A DNA stretch of 53,280 nt from Gammaproteobacteria bacterium (GTDB lineage: Bacteria > Pseudomonadota > Gammaproteobacteria > Ga0077536): assembly GCA_030429865.1 (NCBI GenBank), contig JAUIFX010000005.1:1-53280 (forward strand). Reading direction: 5' to 3'. The notes beneath the pieces are model-generated. The model did not search any database. It saw only the letters and a program-made list of their open reading frames with translations, and had not been told where the DNA came from. Shown one piece after another: positions 4,018-10,832 of this stretch. A program made the translations under genes and the position numbers. Positions within the stretch are counted from its first letter, which is position 1, and each line of letters opens with the position of its first letter.

Positions 4018-6297
4018 TCAGCGCCCGCGCAGCTGGGCCTCGATGTCGTCGAGGAGGCTGCGCGTGTTGGACGCGTGCTCTTCGCGAGCCGCGTCGGCGC
4101 GTGCCCGGATGCGCGCGATCATGTCTTTCTGGCGGGCCAGGGCATCGCGCTGCTGGGTGGATTGCTGCAGGCGATCCTGTTCTTCGACCCAGTCCGCCAG
4201 CTCGCGTTGCAGCAGCAGGTCGATGTCTTCGGCAGTGCCGTAGGTTCGCTCGAGCTCCTGGCGGTTGTCGTGCGCCGCCGCCGCGGCTGCCGACTCGGCG
4301 GCGCGGGCCTGTTGCAGTTCGCGCTGTGCGGCGTTCGCGCGCTGCTCGACTTCGACGAGGCTCGGCCCCGTAGCCGGGCTGGCCGCGGATCGCGCCGCGG
4401 ACAGCGCTCGTTCGGCCTCGGCACGGGCGGATTCCGCGGCTTCGCGTGCCCGCACGGCCTCGGCGCGCTGGGCGTCGAGGCGCAGCGCCTCGGCCTGCAG
4501 GCGTGCACGCTCCTGTTCCAGCGCGGCCTGGTAGGCCTGCTTGAGACGCTGCTGTTCGGCTTCGAACTGGGCCTGCAGCGCTGCCGCCTCCGCGCGCGCG
4601 GAGCGTTCCGCACTGCGCGCCGCCTCGCGCTCGACGCGTGCTTGCTCGAGTTCCTCGGTGGCGCGCAGAAACGCCTGTTCGAACTTGCGCCGCTCGCGCG
4701 CGAGTTCCTCGCGCAGCTGTTCGCGCAGCGCAGCCTCGCGGTCTACGCGGCTGGCCTCGAGGCGCTCGGTCTGGTCCTGGTAGAGGGCTTCGAGACGGCG
4801 ACGTTCGGCCTCCATGCTGGCCTGTGCACGCGCTTCCGCCGCGCGCAGACGTTCCTCCGCGTCGGCTTCGAGGCGTGCGGCATCGGCGCTGATCGCCTCG
4901 CGTTCGGCGTCAACGGCCTCGCGCTCGGCGTCGAGCGCCTCGCGCACGCGTGCCGTTTCGGCAAGCTGGTCGTGCAGCCGCGCTGCTTCGGCGGCGAGGC
5001 GTTCGCGCTCCGCGTCGAGCTTCTCGCGGACCACGCGCTCGGCGTCCGCCTTCATGCTCGCCGCCTCGGCCATCATGCGGCGCGCCGTCGCGATGGTCTC
5101 CTCGGCGGCACCGCTCGCCGGCGGGGGCGCCGCTGCGGGAGCGTCGTGCGCGGCGGGGGTGCCGGTCTCGGGGGCGGATGCGCCGGTGCCGGCGGCGTCC
5201 GGAATGGCCGCGTCGCGCAGCGGCGCCGCCGCCGGCCGGGCGCCGCGTTCGGCGACCGCGCCATCGACCACGTAGCAGGCGTCGAAACCGTGGCCGGCAA
5301 GCAGGAAAGCGGCCGATGAGCTGCGGCCGCCGGTATCGCAGTAGGCCACGTAGGACACGGCCGGGTCGAGTTCGGACATGCGCATGCGCAGCATGCCGAG
5401 CGGGATATTGAGGCTGTCGGGCAGGCCGTTGTGGGCGTGCTCGTCCTCGAAGCGCACGTCGAGCCAGCGCGCCCCGGCCGCCACGCGCCGTTCCGCCTCG
5501 GCGAGGTCGACGGCGTCGAGCAGCGGCGCCTTGATCAGGCGCGCGAAGTCCTCCTTGGTCAGGCGCGCGAGCGCGCCGTCGCTGAGCATGCGCACCGTGG
5601 CGTTGCGGGTGGCGTCGGAGACCAGCGCCTCTTCGCCGAAGGTGTCTCCGGGGCCGAGCTCGGCGAGCTTGATGGGGCGCCCGCGTGCGCCGGCACGCAC
5701 GACCTCGCAGTGGCCCGACTGGACGACGTAATAGTAGTCCCCCGGCTCGCCCTGGCGGACGATGTCCTGGCCGGCCGTCACGTCAATCGATTCGAGCGTG
5801 TCGAGCAGGGTCTGCACGTTCGACGGCGGAACGCGCGTGAAGAGATCCGATTGCAGCAGCGTGACCAGCCAGTCGTCAGTGCTGTCGACTTCCACCACCT
5901 CGATGTCCGCGGCGCCGGTACCGGTCGCCGGCAGCGCTGGGCTGTCGGTGCTGAGCAGCTGCTCGAGCAGGCTGCGGCGCAGCCCGAGAACCAGCGCCGG
6001 CCCGGTCGCGACGGCCGACATCTGGCGGGGCTGCAGCTGGGCGAGCGGTTGGAACGAGGCTGCCTCGCCGCCGACCACGCGTTTGATCAGCGAGCCGTCG
6101 GCGTGCATCTCGATGGTGCCCTCGAGCACGTAGTAGGTGTAGTCGTCGCGATCGCCCTGCGCAAAGAGCTGTTGCTTCTTGCGCAGTTCGAACAACGCCG
6201 CCTGCGCGAGCAGGCGGCGCTGGCGTTCGGCCGGCAGCTTGTTCAGGGGCACGAGGTACCCGGCGCGAGATTCGAGCAGGGCGTTTTCGGCAGCCAT
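4018..6297 (-). CDS. Double cNMP-binding / rhodanese / long coiled-coil protein (paralog 1)
   Basis: 759 residues, cytoplasmic (no signal or membrane segment). Two cyclic-nucleotide-binding (Crp-like) domains lie at about 15-115 and 150-255. The second has a near-canonical phosphate-binding cassette, FGEEAL (220-225) with TRNATV (Arg231). The first is degenerate and carries PLAQLQPRQMSA (84-95). A rhodanese domain (about 265-350) has a Cys320 loop CDTGGRS, so the catalytic Cys is present. A Pro/Ala linker follows, then about 350 residues of Ala/Glu/Arg-rich heptads predicted as one continuous coiled coil. The C-terminal 70 residues resemble those of the divergent paralog at 6846-9758. No DNA-binding HTH is visible, so this is not a Crp-type transcription factor. 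It lies 31 bases downstream of the DUF465 gene on the same strand. Domain calls are solid; function is unknown, perhaps a second-messenger-responsive scaffold. Confidence 0.88.
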   Translation of the reverse strand: MAAENALLESRAGYLVPLNKLPAERQRRLLAQAALFELRKKQQLFAQGDRDDYTYYVLEGTIEMHADGSLIKRVVGGEAASFQPLAQLQPRQMSAVATGPALVLGLRRSLLEQLLSTDSPALPATGTGAADIEVVEVDSTDDWLVTLLQSDLFTRVPPSNVQTLLDTLESIDVTAGQDIVRQGEPGDYYYVVQSGHCEVVRAGARGRPIKLAELGPGDTFGEEALVSDATRNATVRMLSDGALARLTKEDFARLIKAPLLDAVDLAEAERRVAAGARWLDVRFEDEHAHNGLPDSLNIPLGMLRMRMSELDPAVSYVAYCDTGGRSSSAAFLLAGHGFDACYVVDGAVAERGARPAAAPLRDAAIPDAAGTGASAPETGTPAAHDAPAAAPPPASGAAEETIATARRMMAEAASMKADAERVVREKLDAERERLAAEAARLHDQLAETARVREALDAEREAVDAEREAISADAARLEADAEERLRAAEARAQASMEAERRRLEALYQDQTERLEASRVDREAALREQLREELARERRKFEQAFLRATEELEQARVEREAARSAERSARAEAAALQAQFEAEQQRLKQAYQAALEQERARLQAEALRLDAQRAEAVRAREAAESARAEAERALSAARSAASPATGPSLVEVEQRANAAQRELQQARAAESAAAAAAHDNRQELERTYGTAEDIDLLLQRELADWVEEQDRLQQSTQQRDALARQKDMIARIRARADAAREEHASNTRSLLDDIEAQLRGR

Positions 6298-6328
6298 GAT
6301 CCGTGTGGGGCGCGGCGCGGGCCCGGCC

Positions 6329-6535
6329 TCAGGCGTCGAGATCCGGGATCAGCCGACTCTTCAGACGCGTGATCTGGTCCTTGAGCAGCAGCTTGCGTTT
6401 CTTCATGCGTGTCACCATCAACTGGTCGACCGCGCCCCCCAGCGTCAGGTTCGCGACCACCTCGTCGAGCTCGCGATGTTCGCTCTGCAATTCGATGATG
6501 CGACGCTGAATGGATTTGACGTCTTCGTCCGACAC
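6329..6535 (-). CDS. DUF465 (YdcH-like) small helical protein
   Basis: 68 residues from a GTG start at 6535. The sequence is a helical hairpin of charged heptads (VKSIQRRIIELQSEHRELDE, then RMKKRKLLLKDQITRLKSRL). The conserved LKKRKLxLKDxI-like segment is the signature of the DUF465/YdcH family. The biochemical role of the family is not established. It is the first gene of a two-gene minus-strand unit with the cNMP-rhodanese-coiled-coil gene 31 bases downstream. Its 5' side faces the promoter region of the divergent paralog. Because it is itself a short coiled coil, it could associate with the long coiled coils encoded on either side, but that is inference. Confidence 0.88.
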   Translation of the reverse strand: MSDEDVKSIQRRIIELQSEHRELDEVVANLTLGGAVDQLMVTRMKKRKLLLKDQITRLKSRLIPDLDA

Positions 6536-6652
6536 CCTGGCCAGAACTCCGCTGCCTTGCTGGGAGGTCGCATTCTACGCCGATTCGTCGTGTTGCGGCG
6601 CGTCGGATCGGGGCGCTCCGTGCGATCCCTGCCGGGCAGGTGGCGCCGGCCG

Positions 6653-6668
6653 GGTGACGCCGGTCACA
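6653..6668. promoter_or_regulatory. CRP-like box, distal
   Basis: GGTGA-N6-TCACA matches 9 of the 10 conserved positions of TGTGA-N6-TCACA. Its centre is about 102 bases before the inferred start of transcription of the gene at 6846. It also contains the shorter dyad GTGAC-N4-GTCAC. No footprint or matrix score is available. Confidence 0.5.
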
Positions 6669-6695
6669 TTCGCCGCACCGCGCCCGGCGCGCTTG

Positions 6696-6711
6696 CGTGA
6701 CGGCCTTCACA
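6696..6711. promoter_or_regulatory. CRP-like box, proximal
   Basis: CGTGA-N6-TCACA matches 9 of the 10 conserved CRP/Vfr positions. Its centre is 43 bases from the distal box, close to four helical turns. It lies about 59 bases before the inferred transcription start at about 6762, near the class I activation position. Confidence 0.5.
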
Positions 6712-6725
6712 CTTGCCGCGGCCGG

Positions 6726-6755
6726 TTCATGAATCGTTCAGGCAAGGCTTATAGT
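6726..6755 (+). promoter_or_regulatory. Candidate promoter of the 970-residue cNMP protein gene
   Basis: TATAGT at 6750-6755 is a good -10 element. The matching -35 region (TTCATG, 6726-6731, 18-base spacer) is poor. This is what is expected of a promoter that depends on an activator such as CRP. Confidence 0.4.
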
Positions 6756-6845
6756 CTGGACAGGGTACAGCCGACAACGCACTCATCGGCAACCCTGGCG
6801 GCACGATGACCCGGTAAGCCGGCATGCCCCCAAGTGCGAGGATTC

Positions 6846-9758
6846 ATGTCCGCCCTCAAATCTGAACTCGACGGCCTGCCCGACAGCCTGACCCCGCTGT
6901 GTCAGCTCTCGGCGCACAGCCAGGCCCGCCTGCACGAGGTCGCGGAGTTCGTGCATTACGAGCGTGGCAACATCGTCTTCCGCGAGGGCGAGACGGACGG
7001 GTACACCATCTACCTGCTCGAAGGCACGCTCGAGCTCGGTAGTGGCGACCAGGTGCTGCGCCGCATCAGCGGCGGTACCGCCGAGGCGAACAGCCCGCTC
7101 GCCCAGCTGCAGCCCCGCCAGATGTCGGCACGCGCGCTGTCCGAGGTCGCGGTGCTGCGCCTGCCGCGGGAACTGCTCGCCGAATGCGTGGCGCGCGAGC
7201 TCGGCGCCGTCGAGGGCGCCGCGTTCCAGGTCGACGAAATCGACAGTGCCGAGCAGGACGACTGGATGACGCGCATGCTGCGCTCGAAGCTCTTCGCGCA
7301 GTTGCCCGCATCGAACATACATCGGATCTTCAGCCTGCTCGAAAGCATCGAGGTTCCGGCCGACGAATACGTCGTGCGCCAGGGCGAGCCGGGCGAGTAC
7401 TACTACATCATCGTCAACGGCCGTGCCGAGGTGACGCGCGCCGCGGGGCCGGGTGCGCCGAACTACCGCCTTGCGCTGATCGGGGCCGGTGACGCCTTCG
7501 GCGAGGAGGCGCTGGTCGGCGACGGCACGCGCAACGCCTCCGTGCGCATGCTCACCGCGGGCCAGATCGTGCGCCTCGCCAAGCAGGACTTCGTCGATCT
7601 CATCCGTGCCCCCTTGCTGAACGCGGTGACCCTGCCACAGGGGCGCGATCTCGTGGCGACCCGGGACGCGCAGTGGCTGGACGTCCGTTTCCCCGAAGAA
7701 CATGCCAGGAAGGCCATTGCCGGCAGTCTCAACCATCCCCTGAGCACACTGCGGATGCATTCCGGCCGGCTCGATACCGCCACGACCTACCTCGTCTACT
7801 GCGACGACGGCACCCGCAGCGCGGTAGCGGCTTTCCTGCTCGCCGAACGCGGCTTCGACGTGCACTACCTCGCGGGCGGGTTGGCCGCCCATACGGAGGT
7901 CGGTGCGGACGAACTCGACCTGAGCCTGCACGAGGACGACCAGCAGGCGCCGGTGGCACGGGGACCGGCACCGATCCCTTCGTCGCACCGCAGCGATCGC
8001 GACAACGATGTCGAGCCGGCGGTCAAGGCCGCCGCGCTCAGCGTCGAATCGGCCGTGGCGGCGCTGTCGGTCGACGATGCGGCGTCGGCGGCCGCGCCGC
8101 GTGCAGCGCAGGCACCGGCCGTGACCGACCCCGCGGCGGACGAGGCGCAGGCGCTGGCCGTGCGCGAAGCAGCGGCCAAGGCACGTGCGCAGATACAGCG
8201 CCAAGCCGCCAAGCGCATCGCCGCCGAGCGCGAGCGCGCCCGGGCAGCCCTCGAGCAGGCGCGGGCCGCGGCCGAGCGCGAGGCGCGCGAACGCCTCGAG
8301 GCCGAGCGCGAACGTGCCCGGATCGAGGTCGAGGCGCGCCTCGAGGCCGAACGCGAGCGGGCGCGCGCCGATGCCGAGGCCCGCCTGGAGGCGGAGCGCG
8401 AACGCGCCGGCCGCGCGGCGCGCGAGCAGCTCGAGGCCGAGCGCCGGCGTCTCGAGGCCGAGGCCGCCGAGGCGCGCGCCGAGCTCGCCGAGGCGCGCCG
8501 CTTGAAACTGGAGGCCGAGCAGGCGCAGGCAGCACAGGCCCAGGCCACGGCCGAGGCGGAGACGCGCCGCGAGCAGGAGGCGGCGCAGAAGCTGCAGGCC
8601 GAGCGCGAGCGTCTCGAGGCCGAGGCGGCCAAGGCGCGCGCGGAACTCGCCGAAGCGCAACGCCTCAAGGCCGAGATAGAGCAGGCTCGCGCAGCCGCCG
8701 AGGCCGAGGTGCAGCGCGAGCGCGAGGCGCAGGCGCGTCGCGTCGAGCAGGTCCGCGCGGAGATGCAGCGCCGGCTCGAGGAGGAAGAGCGCAAGATCAA
8801 GGAAAGCTATGCCTGGCAGGCCGAAGAGCTCAAGCGCCTGCAAGCGCAGAAGCAGCAGGCCGAGGCACGCCTGCGCGAGGAGCAGGCACGCGTACGCCGC
8901 CAGTCGGAGGAAGCGAGCGCGCGTCTCGCCGAGGCCCGCGATTACCAGCAGCGCCTCGAAGAAGTGAAGAAAGCGAGCGCCGCCGAGGCCGCGATGCGCG
9001 AGCGCCAGCAGCTCGAACTCGAGCGGCGGCTACGCGAAGAGCTCAAGCACAAGGTCCACTCGGAGCGCGCGCAGCTCGAGCAGGAACTGGCCCGCAATGC
9101 GGCCGAACTGGGGCGCGCGCGCCAGGAGCTGGACGCGGCCGAGGCCGCGCGCAAGGCGGCGGCCGAGGAAGCCCAGCAGATTGTCGCCGACGTCAAGGCA
9201 GCCCACGCACGGCGGCGCCTGCAGGAAGAATCGGAGATGCAGCTCGAGCGTGCGCGGCTCGAAACCGAGGCGAAGCGCCTGCGCCTCGCGCTGGAACTGG
9301 CCGAACGCGAGAAAGCCTCGGCGTTGGAAGAGCAGGAGCGCGTACGTGCGGAGATCGCCGAGCTACGCCGCAACGGCGCGCCTACGGGCCATGACCTGGC
9401 GCACGACCTCGAGGCCCTCGAAGCGCGCGCCGACGAAGCCGCGCGGCATCTTGCCGATACCGAGCGTGTACGGGCCGACGCCCAGGCCGCCGCAGTGGCC
9501 TCGGCGGGCGACCTCGCGGCGCACCGCGTGCACGAGGACCAGGTGCGCAGCTCGCTCAAGGACGAACTCGACGAGTGGCTGCGCGAGCAGACCGAGCTCG
9601 AGTCGAGCGACGTTCAGCAGAGCATCCTGGCCAACCAGAAAGCGCACCTCGAGCGCATCAAGAATCGCGCCGCGGCGGCCCGCGAAGCAGCCAAGGCGCA
9701 CAACCAGGCGCTGATCGACGAGCTCGCCGCGCGGTTGCGCGAGCCCGACGAAGACTGA
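6846..9758 (+). CDS. Double cNMP-binding / rhodanese / long coiled-coil protein (paralog 2)
   Basis: 970 residues. ATG at 6846 is preferred over the in-frame GTG at 6834 because GCGAGGA lies directly before it. The order of domains is the same as in the divergent paralog. Domain cNMP-1 is degenerate, with the same PLAQLQPRQMSA motif at 84-95. Domain cNMP-2 has FGEEAL at 218-223 and Arg229. The rhodanese Cys319 lies in CDDGTRS. A Pro/Ala linker is followed by about 520 residues of coiled coil dominated by RLEAERERAR-type heptads. The last 70 residues match the paralog (EL-x-E/D-W-x2-EQ, QK, RI, AARE, LR). There is no membrane segment, HTH or enzymatic output domain. Divergent placement and shared architecture indicate an old local duplication, and the two proteins could co-assemble. 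Two CRP-like boxes lie upstream. Confidence 0.88.
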   Translation: MSALKSELDGLPDSLTPLCQLSAHSQARLHEVAEFVHYERGNIVFREGETDGYTIYLLEGTLELGSGDQVLRRISGGTAEANSPLAQLQPRQMSARALSEVAVLRLPRELLAECVARELGAVEGAAFQVDEIDSAEQDDWMTRMLRSKLFAQLPASNIHRIFSLLESIEVPADEYVVRQGEPGEYYYIIVNGRAEVTRAAGPGAPNYRLALIGAGDAFGEEALVGDGTRNASVRMLTAGQIVRLAKQDFVDLIRAPLLNAVTLPQGRDLVATRDAQWLDVRFPEEHARKAIAGSLNHPLSTLRMHSGRLDTATTYLVYCDDGTRSAVAAFLLAERGFDVHYLAGGLAAHTEVGADELDLSLHEDDQQAPVARGPAPIPSSHRSDRDNDVEPAVKAAALSVESAVAALSVDDAASAAAPRAAQAPAVTDPAADEAQALAVREAAAKARAQIQRQAAKRIAAERERARAALEQARAAAEREARERLEAERERARIEVEARLEAERERARADAEARLEAERERAGRAAREQLEAERRRLEAEAAEARAELAEARRLKLEAEQAQAAQAQATAEAETRREQEAAQKLQAERERLEAEAAKARAELAEAQRLKAEIEQARAAAEAEVQREREAQARRVEQVRAEMQRRLEEEERKIKESYAWQAEELKRLQAQKQQAEARLREEQARVRRQSEEASARLAEARDYQQRLEEVKKASAAEAAMRERQQLELERRLREELKHKVHSERAQLEQELARNAAELGRARQELDAAEAARKAAAEEAQQIVADVKAAHARRRLQEESEMQLERARLETEAKRLRLALELAEREKASALEEQERVRAEIAELRRNGAPTGHDLAHDLEALEARADEAARHLADTERVRADAQAAAVASAGDLAAHRVHEDQVRSSLKDELDEWLREQTELESSDVQQSILANQKAHLERIKNRAAAAREAAKAHNQALIDELAARLREPDED
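8448..8771 (+). repeat. Two imperfect 54-residue tandem units inside the coiled coil
   Basis: A unit beginning RLEAEAAEARAELAEARRLK (from 8448) recurs 162 bases later as RLEAEAAKARAELAEAQRLK (from 8610). About the first 27 residues of each unit are nearly identical and the rest diverges. Upstream, at about 8300-8420, shorter RLEAERERAR modules repeat three times. The coiled coil seems to have grown by internal duplication. Confidence 0.65.
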
Positions 9759-9782: not shown

Positions 9783-10121
9783 TCAGCGGTGCGCCCGCGC
9801 GAGGTCGACATGCAGCGCGCCGTCGGGATGCTGCAGGAGCGCCCACAGCGGGCGCAGGTTGAGCAGAGCGACCTCGCCCGTGCAGCGATCGGCGCCATCG
9901 GTGCTGAACTCGAAGCGGTAGACGCGCTCGAGGGCCAGCGCGCCGCCATCGCGAAGCAGGCGTACGCGCGCCAGGACGACGGTCTCGTCGAGGCGTTGGC
10001 AGCCAATCTCGTCGCATACGCGTCGCGCCAGGGCATCGACCCGCTCGCGCGCCTGGGCCGAGTACCACCAGGCAGTGAGCAGCAGCGCACCGGCAGCCAG
10101 CCACAAAAGCTCGGTGTCCAC
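9783..10121 (-). CDS. DUF3301 membrane-anchored protein
   Basis: 112 residues. An N-terminal hydrophobic helix (LLWLAAGALLLTAWWYSAQ, residues 5-23) anchors the protein. A small domain follows with the DUF3301 hallmarks: RACxxxGxQxLDxTV-like (RVCDEIGCQRLDETV), LRRDGGALALERVYRFEFSTDG, and a closing LNLRP segment. This family is typical of Gammaproteobacteria and has no established function. It lies 7 bases downstream of the CPXCG gene on the same strand, so the two are probably one transcript. It is convergent with the 970-residue coiled-coil gene, 24 bases away. Confidence 0.88.
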   Translation of the reverse strand: MDTELLWLAAGALLLTAWWYSAQARERVDALARRVCDEIGCQRLDETVVLARVRLLRDGGALALERVYRFEFSTDGADRCTGEVALLNLRPLWALLQHPDGALHVDLARAHR

Positions 10122-10128
10122 CGGTCGT

Positions 10129-10320
10129 TCAGTCGTCGCCGCGCCGGGCGTCGACGGCGATCCGTCCGCCGGCGTCGATCGTGCAGTCCAGCAGCATGGG
10201 CTGGCAGCAGACTTCGCAGTCCTCGACGTAGCGTTGTGATTCGATGCTCATGTCGACCAGCACGCTGATCGGTTCGCCGCAGTAAGGGCAGACGATGGAC
10301 ACCTCTTCCTGGCCGTTCAT
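10129..10320 (-). CDS. CPXCG-motif zinc-ribbon protein
   Basis: 63 residues. Two Cys pairs, CPYCG (11-15) and CEVCC (35-39), form a probable zinc ribbon. The order CPxCG, acidic spacer, DCxVCC(Q)PM is diagnostic of the small CPXCG-containing cysteine-rich family (Cys_rich_CPXG), whose function is unknown. The extra Cys at residue 45 (LLDCTID) is also usual. It sits between yajQ and the DUF3301 gene, all on the minus strand with gaps of 29 and 7 bases, so the three are likely an operon. Confidence 0.9.
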   Translation of the reverse strand: MNGQEEVSIVCPYCGEPISVLVDMSIESQRYVEDCEVCCQPMLLDCTIDAGGRIAVDARRGDD

Positions 10321-10349
10321 GGCGGTGCGGCGTGCGCGCGCGGCCGTGC

Positions 10350-10832
10350 TCAGTCGCGGAAGTTGGTGAACTGCAGCGGGTAGCCCAGCTCGGCCTGCTT
10401 GAGCATGGCGATGACCTGCTGCAGGTCGTCGCGGCTCTTACCCGTCACGCGCACCTGGTCCTGCTGCATCTGCGCCTGGACCTTGAGCTTGCTGTCCTTG
10501 ACCAGCTTGACGATGCGACGCGCGAGATCCTTGTCGATACCCTCGCGGACGGTGATCGGCTGGCGGCTCTCGGCGACGTTGCTGCTCACCTCGCCGGCTT
10601 CCATGCAGTCGATGTCGATACCACGCTTGGCGCACTTGCCCTGCAGGATCTCGAGCATCTGCCTGAGCTGGAACTCGGACTCGGCAACGAGCGTAATGAC
10701 GTTGTCGGTGCGCTCGAAGCGCGCCTTGGTACCCTTGAAGTCGAAGCGGGTGCCGAGCTCGCGCACGGCCTGGTCGTAGGCGTTGGTGAGTTCGTGTTTG
10801 TCGACTTCCGAGACGGCGTCGAAAGATGGCAT
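10350..10832 (-). CDS. yajQ: YajQ family cyclic di-GMP/nucleotide-binding protein
   Basis: 160 residues, full family length. Diagnostic sequences are MPSFDAVSEVDKHELTNAYD at the start, RFDFKGTKA, QGKCAKRGID, VREGIDKDLARRIVKLVKDS, VQAQMQQDQVRVTGKSRDDL, and the C-terminal LQFTNFRD. YajQ proteins bind nucleotides. Some (XC_3703, and the Pseudomonas homologue) bind cyclic di-GMP and modulate transcription factors, and E. coli YajQ binds tRNA and nucleotides. ATG at 10832 follows a GGAGGG ribosome site. A strong promoter (10917-10945, minus) lies about 80 bases upstream. It is first in a likely operon with the CPXCG and DUF3301 genes. Confidence 0.96.
   Translation of the reverse strand: MPSFDAVSEVDKHELTNAYDQAVRELGTRFDFKGTKARFERTDNVITLVAESEFQLRQMLEILQGKCAKRGIDIDCMEAGEVSSNVAESRQPITVREGIDKDLARRIVKLVKDSKLKVQAQMQQDQVRVTGKSRDDLQQVIAMLKQAELGYPLQFTNFRD

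Follow-up and report, generated by a model that had tools for sequence, protein, structure and literature searches.

P1 and P2, two divergent genes with a small DUF465 gene between them, fairly probably encode a CRP-regulated module of cAMP receptors with helical rods, which resembles CbpA and acts outside transcription. Both proteins combine a tandem of cNMP-binding (CNB) domains, a rhodanese domain, a linker, a helical rod, and a family-specific C-terminal domain, and the two units share a promoter region with two CRP-type operators.

Organization of the locus

The genes lie in a 53,280-nucleotide window, by which we mean the whole stretch of DNA that was analyzed (Table 1). P1 and P2 are transcribed away from each other, their units being separated by 310 bp (6536-6845), and the DUF465 gene is located 31 bp upstream of P1 in the same unit. 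The first-pass annotation described the genes both as divergent, which is correct, with divergent promoters, and as facing each other, which is not. Both open reading frames are real, and the proposed domain order is confirmed by Pfam and the structure models; according to Pfam, each of the two proteins has a pair of cNMP stretches (E 8e-33 and 7e-29) and a single rhodanese (E 6e-9 and 7e-10). To call proteins of 759 and 970 aa giant was an overstatement. For P2, the start can be placed at the ATG at 6846, giving 970 aa, or at the GTG at 6834, giving 974 aa. The two proteins share 47% identity across the N-terminal 353 residues (E 3e-96), and their C-termini can also be aligned. The 68-aa open reading frame is a DUF465 protein (Pfam ID PF04325; E 4e-15; 56 bits versus a gathering score of 25), in agreement with the small helical protein that had been annotated in one of the units.

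TABLE 1 Features of the P1-DUF465-P2 locus (window positions) and loci of relatives ending in an FGE-sulfatase domain
Feature	Position	Strand	Evidence
P1, 759 aa: CNB tandem, rhodanese, linker, helical rod, C-terminal domain	4018..6297	minus	ORF, Pfam, AlphaFold2
P1 C-terminal ~80-residue family domain (ELxxWxxEQ ... RIRxRA)	4024..4269	minus	HMM
P1 Ala/Glu/Arg helical rod	4270..5109	minus	AlphaFold2, periodicity analysis
P1 Pro/Ala linker, predicted disordered (pLDDT <50)	5110..5250	minus	AlphaFold2
P1 rhodanese domain	5251..5505	minus	Pfam
P1 rhodanese Cys320 in CDTGGR loop	5338..5340	minus	ORF translation, residue conservation
P1 second cNMP domain, intact cassette FGEEALVSDATRNATV (G221, E222, R231, A233)	5521..5862	minus	
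P1 first cNMP domain, degenerate, FQPLAQLQPRQMSA in place of FGExAL...RxA	5950..6231	minus	Pfam, residue conservation, AlphaFold2
DUF465 (YdcH-like), 68 aa; opens the P1 unit	6329..6535	minus	Pfam
CRP-type operator 1, gGTGACGCCGGTCACA	6654..6667	.	pattern GTGAN6TCAC
CRP-type operator 2, cGTGACGGCCTTCACA, 43 bp from operator 1	6697..6710	.	pattern GTGAN6TCAC
P2, 970 aa, P1-type architecture	6846..9758	plus	ORF, Pfam, AlphaFold2
P2 first cNMP domain, degenerate	6912..7202	plus	residue conservation, AlphaFold2
P2 second cNMP domain, intact cassette	7272..7616	plus	residue conservation, AlphaFold2
P2 rhodanese domain; Cys319 at 7800-7802	7632..7901	plus	Pfam
P2 Pro/Ala linker, predicted disordered	7902..8147	plus	AlphaFold2
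P2 Ala/Glu/Arg helical rod	8148..9500	plus	AlphaFold2, periodicity analysis
P2 C-terminal family domain	9501..9746	plus	HMM
FGE-ending relatives	L046:5567-9727, L049:83-5158, L101:8951-13348; also L122, L123, L125, L129		

The tandem CNB front end

The first CNB domain (CNB1) is degenerate, as had been proposed, with PLAQLQPRQMSA in place of the Gly-Glu that belongs to the phosphate-binding cassette; it probably serves as a packing or dimerization partner. The second domain (CNB2) carries FGEEAL and RNA[TS]V, and its intact appearance is borne out by the orthologues, with G221, E222, R231, and A233 kept in 11/11 P1 and 11/11 P2 proteins. The nucleotide pocket is retained nearly throughout 99 diverse family members.

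The best Foldseek matches for the full-length model are the tandem CNB domains of PKA RI-alpha and PKG (E ~1e-18, probability 1.00), with TM-scores that are low because the query included the rod. The phmmer sequence matches to solved proteins are likewise PKG and PKA regulatory subunits. Judging from its residues, the CNB2 pocket would bind cAMP, where the choice of cAMP over cGMP or another nucleotide is suggested by the gene context, the RNAT sequence being nondiagnostic.

CNB domains that are free of nucleotide exist in other families. With CNB1 being degenerate and the rod being the most variable part of the chain, one could suppose that the CNB domains of P1 and P2 bind no cyclic nucleotide in vivo and are, together with the rhodanese, mere adaptors of structural rod proteins. 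The phosphate-binding cassette, invariant in 22/22 P1 and P2 proteins and nearly so in the 99 diverse members, argues against this, as do the CRP-type operators of the locus and the short relatives in cyclase/phosphodiesterase (PDE) operons described below, and we regard an adaptor role as unlikely.

The rhodanese domain

The catalytic-type Cys noticed in the rhodanese domain is conserved in all orthologues, where C320 and R325 of the loop are present in 11/11 P1 and 11/11 P2 proteins. The CxxGxR loop with its Cys and the Asp/Arg of the DVR motif are found in all P1 and P2 proteins and in nearly all short forms of the family, the Cys in 34/35 of them. This conservation, and the fact that some relatives come from sulfur-oxidizer genera (Thiohalophilus, Sulfuritalea, and Thiogranum), would suit proteins that are mainly sulfurtransferases or persulfide carriers, with cAMP tuning the sulfur transfer allosterically and the rod targeting the enzyme to its substrate. 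However, a subgroup of 615 to 660 aa (L103, L085, and L078-L081) has lost the Cys in 6/6 members while keeping the nucleotide pocket, which makes the pocket the more constant element. Furthermore, no recurrent sulfur-metabolism genes were found beside short or long forms, and the relatives also include methanotrophs and Lysobacterales. A main function in sulfur handling seems improbable to us on these grounds.

Linker, helical rod, and C-terminal domain

The AlphaFold2 models show a confident CNB-CNB-rhodanese core, followed by a disordered linker and near-continuous helices up to the C-terminus (P1 residues 397-757, mean pLDDT 81; P2 residues 435-965, mean pLDDT 75). No other part of the two proteins varies as much as the rod, whose length in the orthologues is 242-588 residues for P1 and 355-814 for P2. 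The first-pass annotation had described 350-520 residues of coiled coil. The long Ala/Glu/Arg helices are supported by the models, but the heptad periodicity is weak, with z scores of 0.4 and 1.6 at 3.5 residues in the Fourier analysis of the rods and a weak peak at 3.6-3.67 (z 1.3-2.3), so that coiled-coil oligomerization of the rod lacks sequence support. The C-terminal signature proposed as common to P1 and P2 stands and extends over ~80 residues; an HMM of this region matches only members of the family, apart from probable fragments of broken members.

P1, P2, and DUF465 form a conserved cassette

In a maximum-likelihood tree, built by a quick method and with moderate stem support, P1 and P2 form separate clades, each with several families (SH-aLRT 88 for both stems), suggesting ancient paralogues that were kept together. 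Genes on the loci of relatives were called with a home-made caller, which missed some genes on short contigs. DUF465 adjoins 11/11 P1 genes from several families, is located next to P2 where P1 is absent (G002 and G015), and is found at P1/P2 loci in 15 genomes overall. It also lies beside a more distant long tandem (L045), and a six-frame search of all loci found DUF465 at no short or FGE locus. The gene order is divergent in most cases, while in L040 and L112 all three genes share a strand in the order P2-DUF465-P1, and this variation indicates that the linkage is more than frozen synteny. P1, P2, and DUF465 are therefore a stable cassette across several families. Paralogues occurring alone in most genomes had been named as an observation that would speak against a joint system. 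This is what we see for the core family, which is usually a single short protein, and not for the P1/P2 clade, whose members are usually paired and always accompanied by DUF465.

DUF465 proteins are present in 71/199 genomes of the phylum, including a member in E. coli, and the source genome has only two DUF465 genes. A general association of DUF465 with coiled-coil genes was also considered and rejected, as none of 29 sampled DUF465 genes elsewhere lies beside comparable rod proteins. Among solved structures, the best match for the DUF465 protein is HP1242, which is weak (E 0.21).

The flanking MoxR/CoxE, SEL1/PilZ-like, CPXCG, and YajQ genes were rejected as partners, since they are conserved largely within the family's own chromosomal backbone. 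YajQ (window 9783-10832; L115 and L117) is found near long members in two other families, so this association may exceed backbone synteny; CPXCG is found in the window and in L115. A phage or plasmid origin was likewise discarded, with no PHROG match and no plasmid match. No kinase gene was recognized among the P1/P2 neighbors, and no cyclase is adjacent at the P1/P2 loci, the cyclase operon belonging to the short relatives.

CRP-type operators in the divergent promoter region

The CRP/Vfr consensus is TGTGAN6TCACA, and its core, GTGAN6TCAC, was used as the search pattern. The window has only two copies of it (0.45 expected), both of them inside the 310-bp divergent gap. Genome-wide (4.6 Mb), the longer GTGAN6TCACA has ~10 distinct sites, of which this gap holds two, and the reversed control pattern occurs once. 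Across the relatives, an operator is present in 13/15 cassette promoter regions versus 8/553 control intergenic regions (Fisher p 2e-19), where the p value is inflated by kinship because ~10 loci come from one family and the counts are not phylogenetically independent. Two of the 8 positive control regions are also upstream of family members.

The operator-positive cassette promoters span four families, with 10/10 consensus matches in L040 and L112. Double operators 41-43 bp apart, corresponding to about four helical turns, are found in the window, the sister genome, G007, and G016, and, judged by eye, the operator aligns between loci and the flanks align little. The operator is absent from L113 despite a DUF465-P1 pair, and a consensus scan of the gap found no sigma-70-like promoter. 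In the source genome, two proteins pass the NCBIfam cut-off as CRP orthologues, one of them with the recognition helix SREMVGR, and there are seven class III cyclase matches over the cut-off. The pair is thus apparently under CRP control, as far as can be read from the DNA. The CRP orthologues (G000 contigs C39 and C202; L170 and L171) score 341 and 311 bits, a redundancy that is unusual for a cAMP regulator.

The wider family and its gene contexts

The ~350-residue front end, composed of the tandem CNB and the rhodanese, is found in 164/364 sampled near-complete genomes of the class (45%), counted at E 1e-30 or better, with the listed matches spanning both parts. The usual form is a single stand-alone short protein of ~350 aa. 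Besides P1 and P2, the source genome has three further members, namely a short form and two proteins of ~620-650 aa, which makes five in total. The tails of the long forms differ, being a rod with the C-terminal domain, a rod with an FGE-sulfatase domain, or the tail of the 615-660 aa group. Named relatives are from Gammaproteobacteria metagenome-assembled genomes (in the GTDB sense, with betaproteobacterial orders included), Thiohalophilus, Methylomonas, Sulfuritalea, Thiogranum, Lysobacterales, and others. In the FGE-ending relatives, a cAMP-receptor-like front end, the rhodanese, and, behind the rod, the formylglycine-generating-enzyme domain are joined in one chain of 1040-1984 aa. Two diverged short paralogues lie a few genes apart in Lysobacterales (L067 and L068). 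Our literature search for the CNB-rhodanese combination found no relevant paper in the library that it covered.

PADLOC Pycsar-TIR models match P1 (E 7e-9 and 3e-10), which would fit a Pycsar-type defense effector with a cNMP-binding domain gating a toxic domain. The match is limited to the CNB domain, no toxic domain follows it, Pfam gives no TIR or transmembrane effector, and there is no adjacent cyclase. The conserved chromosomal synteny within the family and the 45% of sampled genomes that carry the core speak against it as well. CRP control is ill matched to a defense island, and we reject a defense identity as hardly credible.

In Rhodocyclales and relatives, the short protein is encoded in a same-strand run of genes for a conserved 880-aa protein, PP2C, FHA, a CHASE2-class III cyclase, a class II cAMP PDE family protein, the short core protein, a GAF-PilB-type ATPase, and a GAF-HD-GYP protein. 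The PDE and short core genes are separated by a gap of 2 to 10 bp or overlap by 4 bp. Runs of this cyclase/PDE type are seen at L055, L057, L059, L060, and L063, and the L055-type run looks like a complete cAMP signaling unit coupled to a pilus-type ATPase. A CHASE2 cyclase is also near the short form at three further loci (L042, L043, and L072). The short forms in cyclase/PDE operons tie the family to cAMP.

In the family of the source genome, the short form is located within glnK-amtB-short-aroE, and amtB-short is found in another lineage. On contig C234 of the source genome (G000; L102, 1065-6897), glnK-amtB is present twice, followed by the short CNB-CNB-rhodanese gene and aroE, an order that is kept across the family. 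Although this context could suggest that the pair serves nitrogen or ammonium signaling, only the short form is found at amtB, the P1/P2 neighbors (MoxR, CoxE, and YajQ) are unrelated, and short forms elsewhere lie beside cyclase, CHASE2, or unrelated genes. We consider a nitrogen function very unlikely.

Proposed function

For the CbpA-like cAMP-receptor module, the following sequence of events can be envisaged. cAMP-CRP would occupy one or two operators of the common promoter region and, if it acts as an activator, turn on both units. cAMP would then enter CNB2 of each protein and rearrange the CNB tandem and the rhodanese, as in a PKA regulatory subunit or CbpA. The rhodanese might act as an active-type module with a Cys able to hold a persulfide, or as a protein-docking module. 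The linker, the variable-length rod, and the C-terminal domain may position the sensor at a cellular site, where P1, P2, and DUF465 might join via the rod or C-terminal parts, as their observed genetic linkage would allow.

A further-reaching proposal, which we put forward tentatively and hold to be rather doubtful, is that the proteins represent a widespread, undescribed family of non-DNA-binding cAMP receptors, present in almost half of the class as sampled and developed in some lineages into a CRP-controlled two-paralogue DUF465 rod assembly with cAMP-gated heads and a Cys that couples cAMP to persulfide or redox state. If true, this would add a spatially organized cAMP effector layer beyond CRP. 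The divergent pair offers a testable circuit, in which cAMP-CRP would bring about the synthesis of proteins that in turn respond to cAMP, and the cassette points to a specific candidate partner of a DUF465 protein.

Comparison with known systems

The first-pass annotation saw no known pathway behind this combination of domains. That statement is weakened by the likeness to PKA/PKG and CbpA, the cyclase/PDE operons of the short relatives, and the CRP operators. P1 and P2 share the tandem CNB fold with the regulatory subunits of PKA and PKG and have a PKG-like cassette, but only CNB2 is intact, and a rhodanese and a rod are found instead of a kinase. With the CRP/FNR transcription factors they have the CNB domain in common, whereas no helix-turn-helix of that type was found, Pfam giving CNB and rhodanese only. 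The rhodanese fold and the CxxGxR loop are shared with the single-domain rhodaneses GlpE and PspE; P1 and P2 reach only 15-34 bits, far under the family cut-offs of 102-126, and unlike in GlpE and PspE, their rhodanese is embedded in a cAMP-receptor-like chain. The cassette protein matches the DUF465/YdcH family above the Pfam cut-off and differs from the 29 members sampled elsewhere, which are not beside rod proteins, in being locked to P1 genes.

The closest parallel is CbpA. Endoh and Engel reportedly described it in 2009 as a cAMP receptor other than a transcription factor, having a degenerate N-terminal and an intact C-terminal CNB domain, with its gene under the CRP homologue Vfr. To our knowledge, CbpA is the product of a single gene and lacks the rhodanese domain, the rod, and a DUF465 partner. 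Compared with this description, P1 and P2 have the same two-CNB layout, with CNB1 degenerate and CNB2 intact in all orthologues, together with CRP-type operators, and are set apart by the rhodanese, the rod, and the DUF465 partner. The conserved pockets and the cyclase/PDE operons suggest that it is common for members of the class to possess cAMP receptors in addition to CRP. According to reviews, the CbpA protein of Pseudomonas aeruginosa (PA4704) is a cAMP receptor that exists alongside CRP and has a polar location (PMC7247823, PMC3019171, PMC11139211). Most bacteria are said to have no cAMP effector other than CRP, and the Pseudomonas protein CbpA is the exception that is named (PMC7247823, PMC11139211). 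Set beside these systems, P1 and P2 look like a little-known second bacterial way, besides CRP, of reading cAMP.
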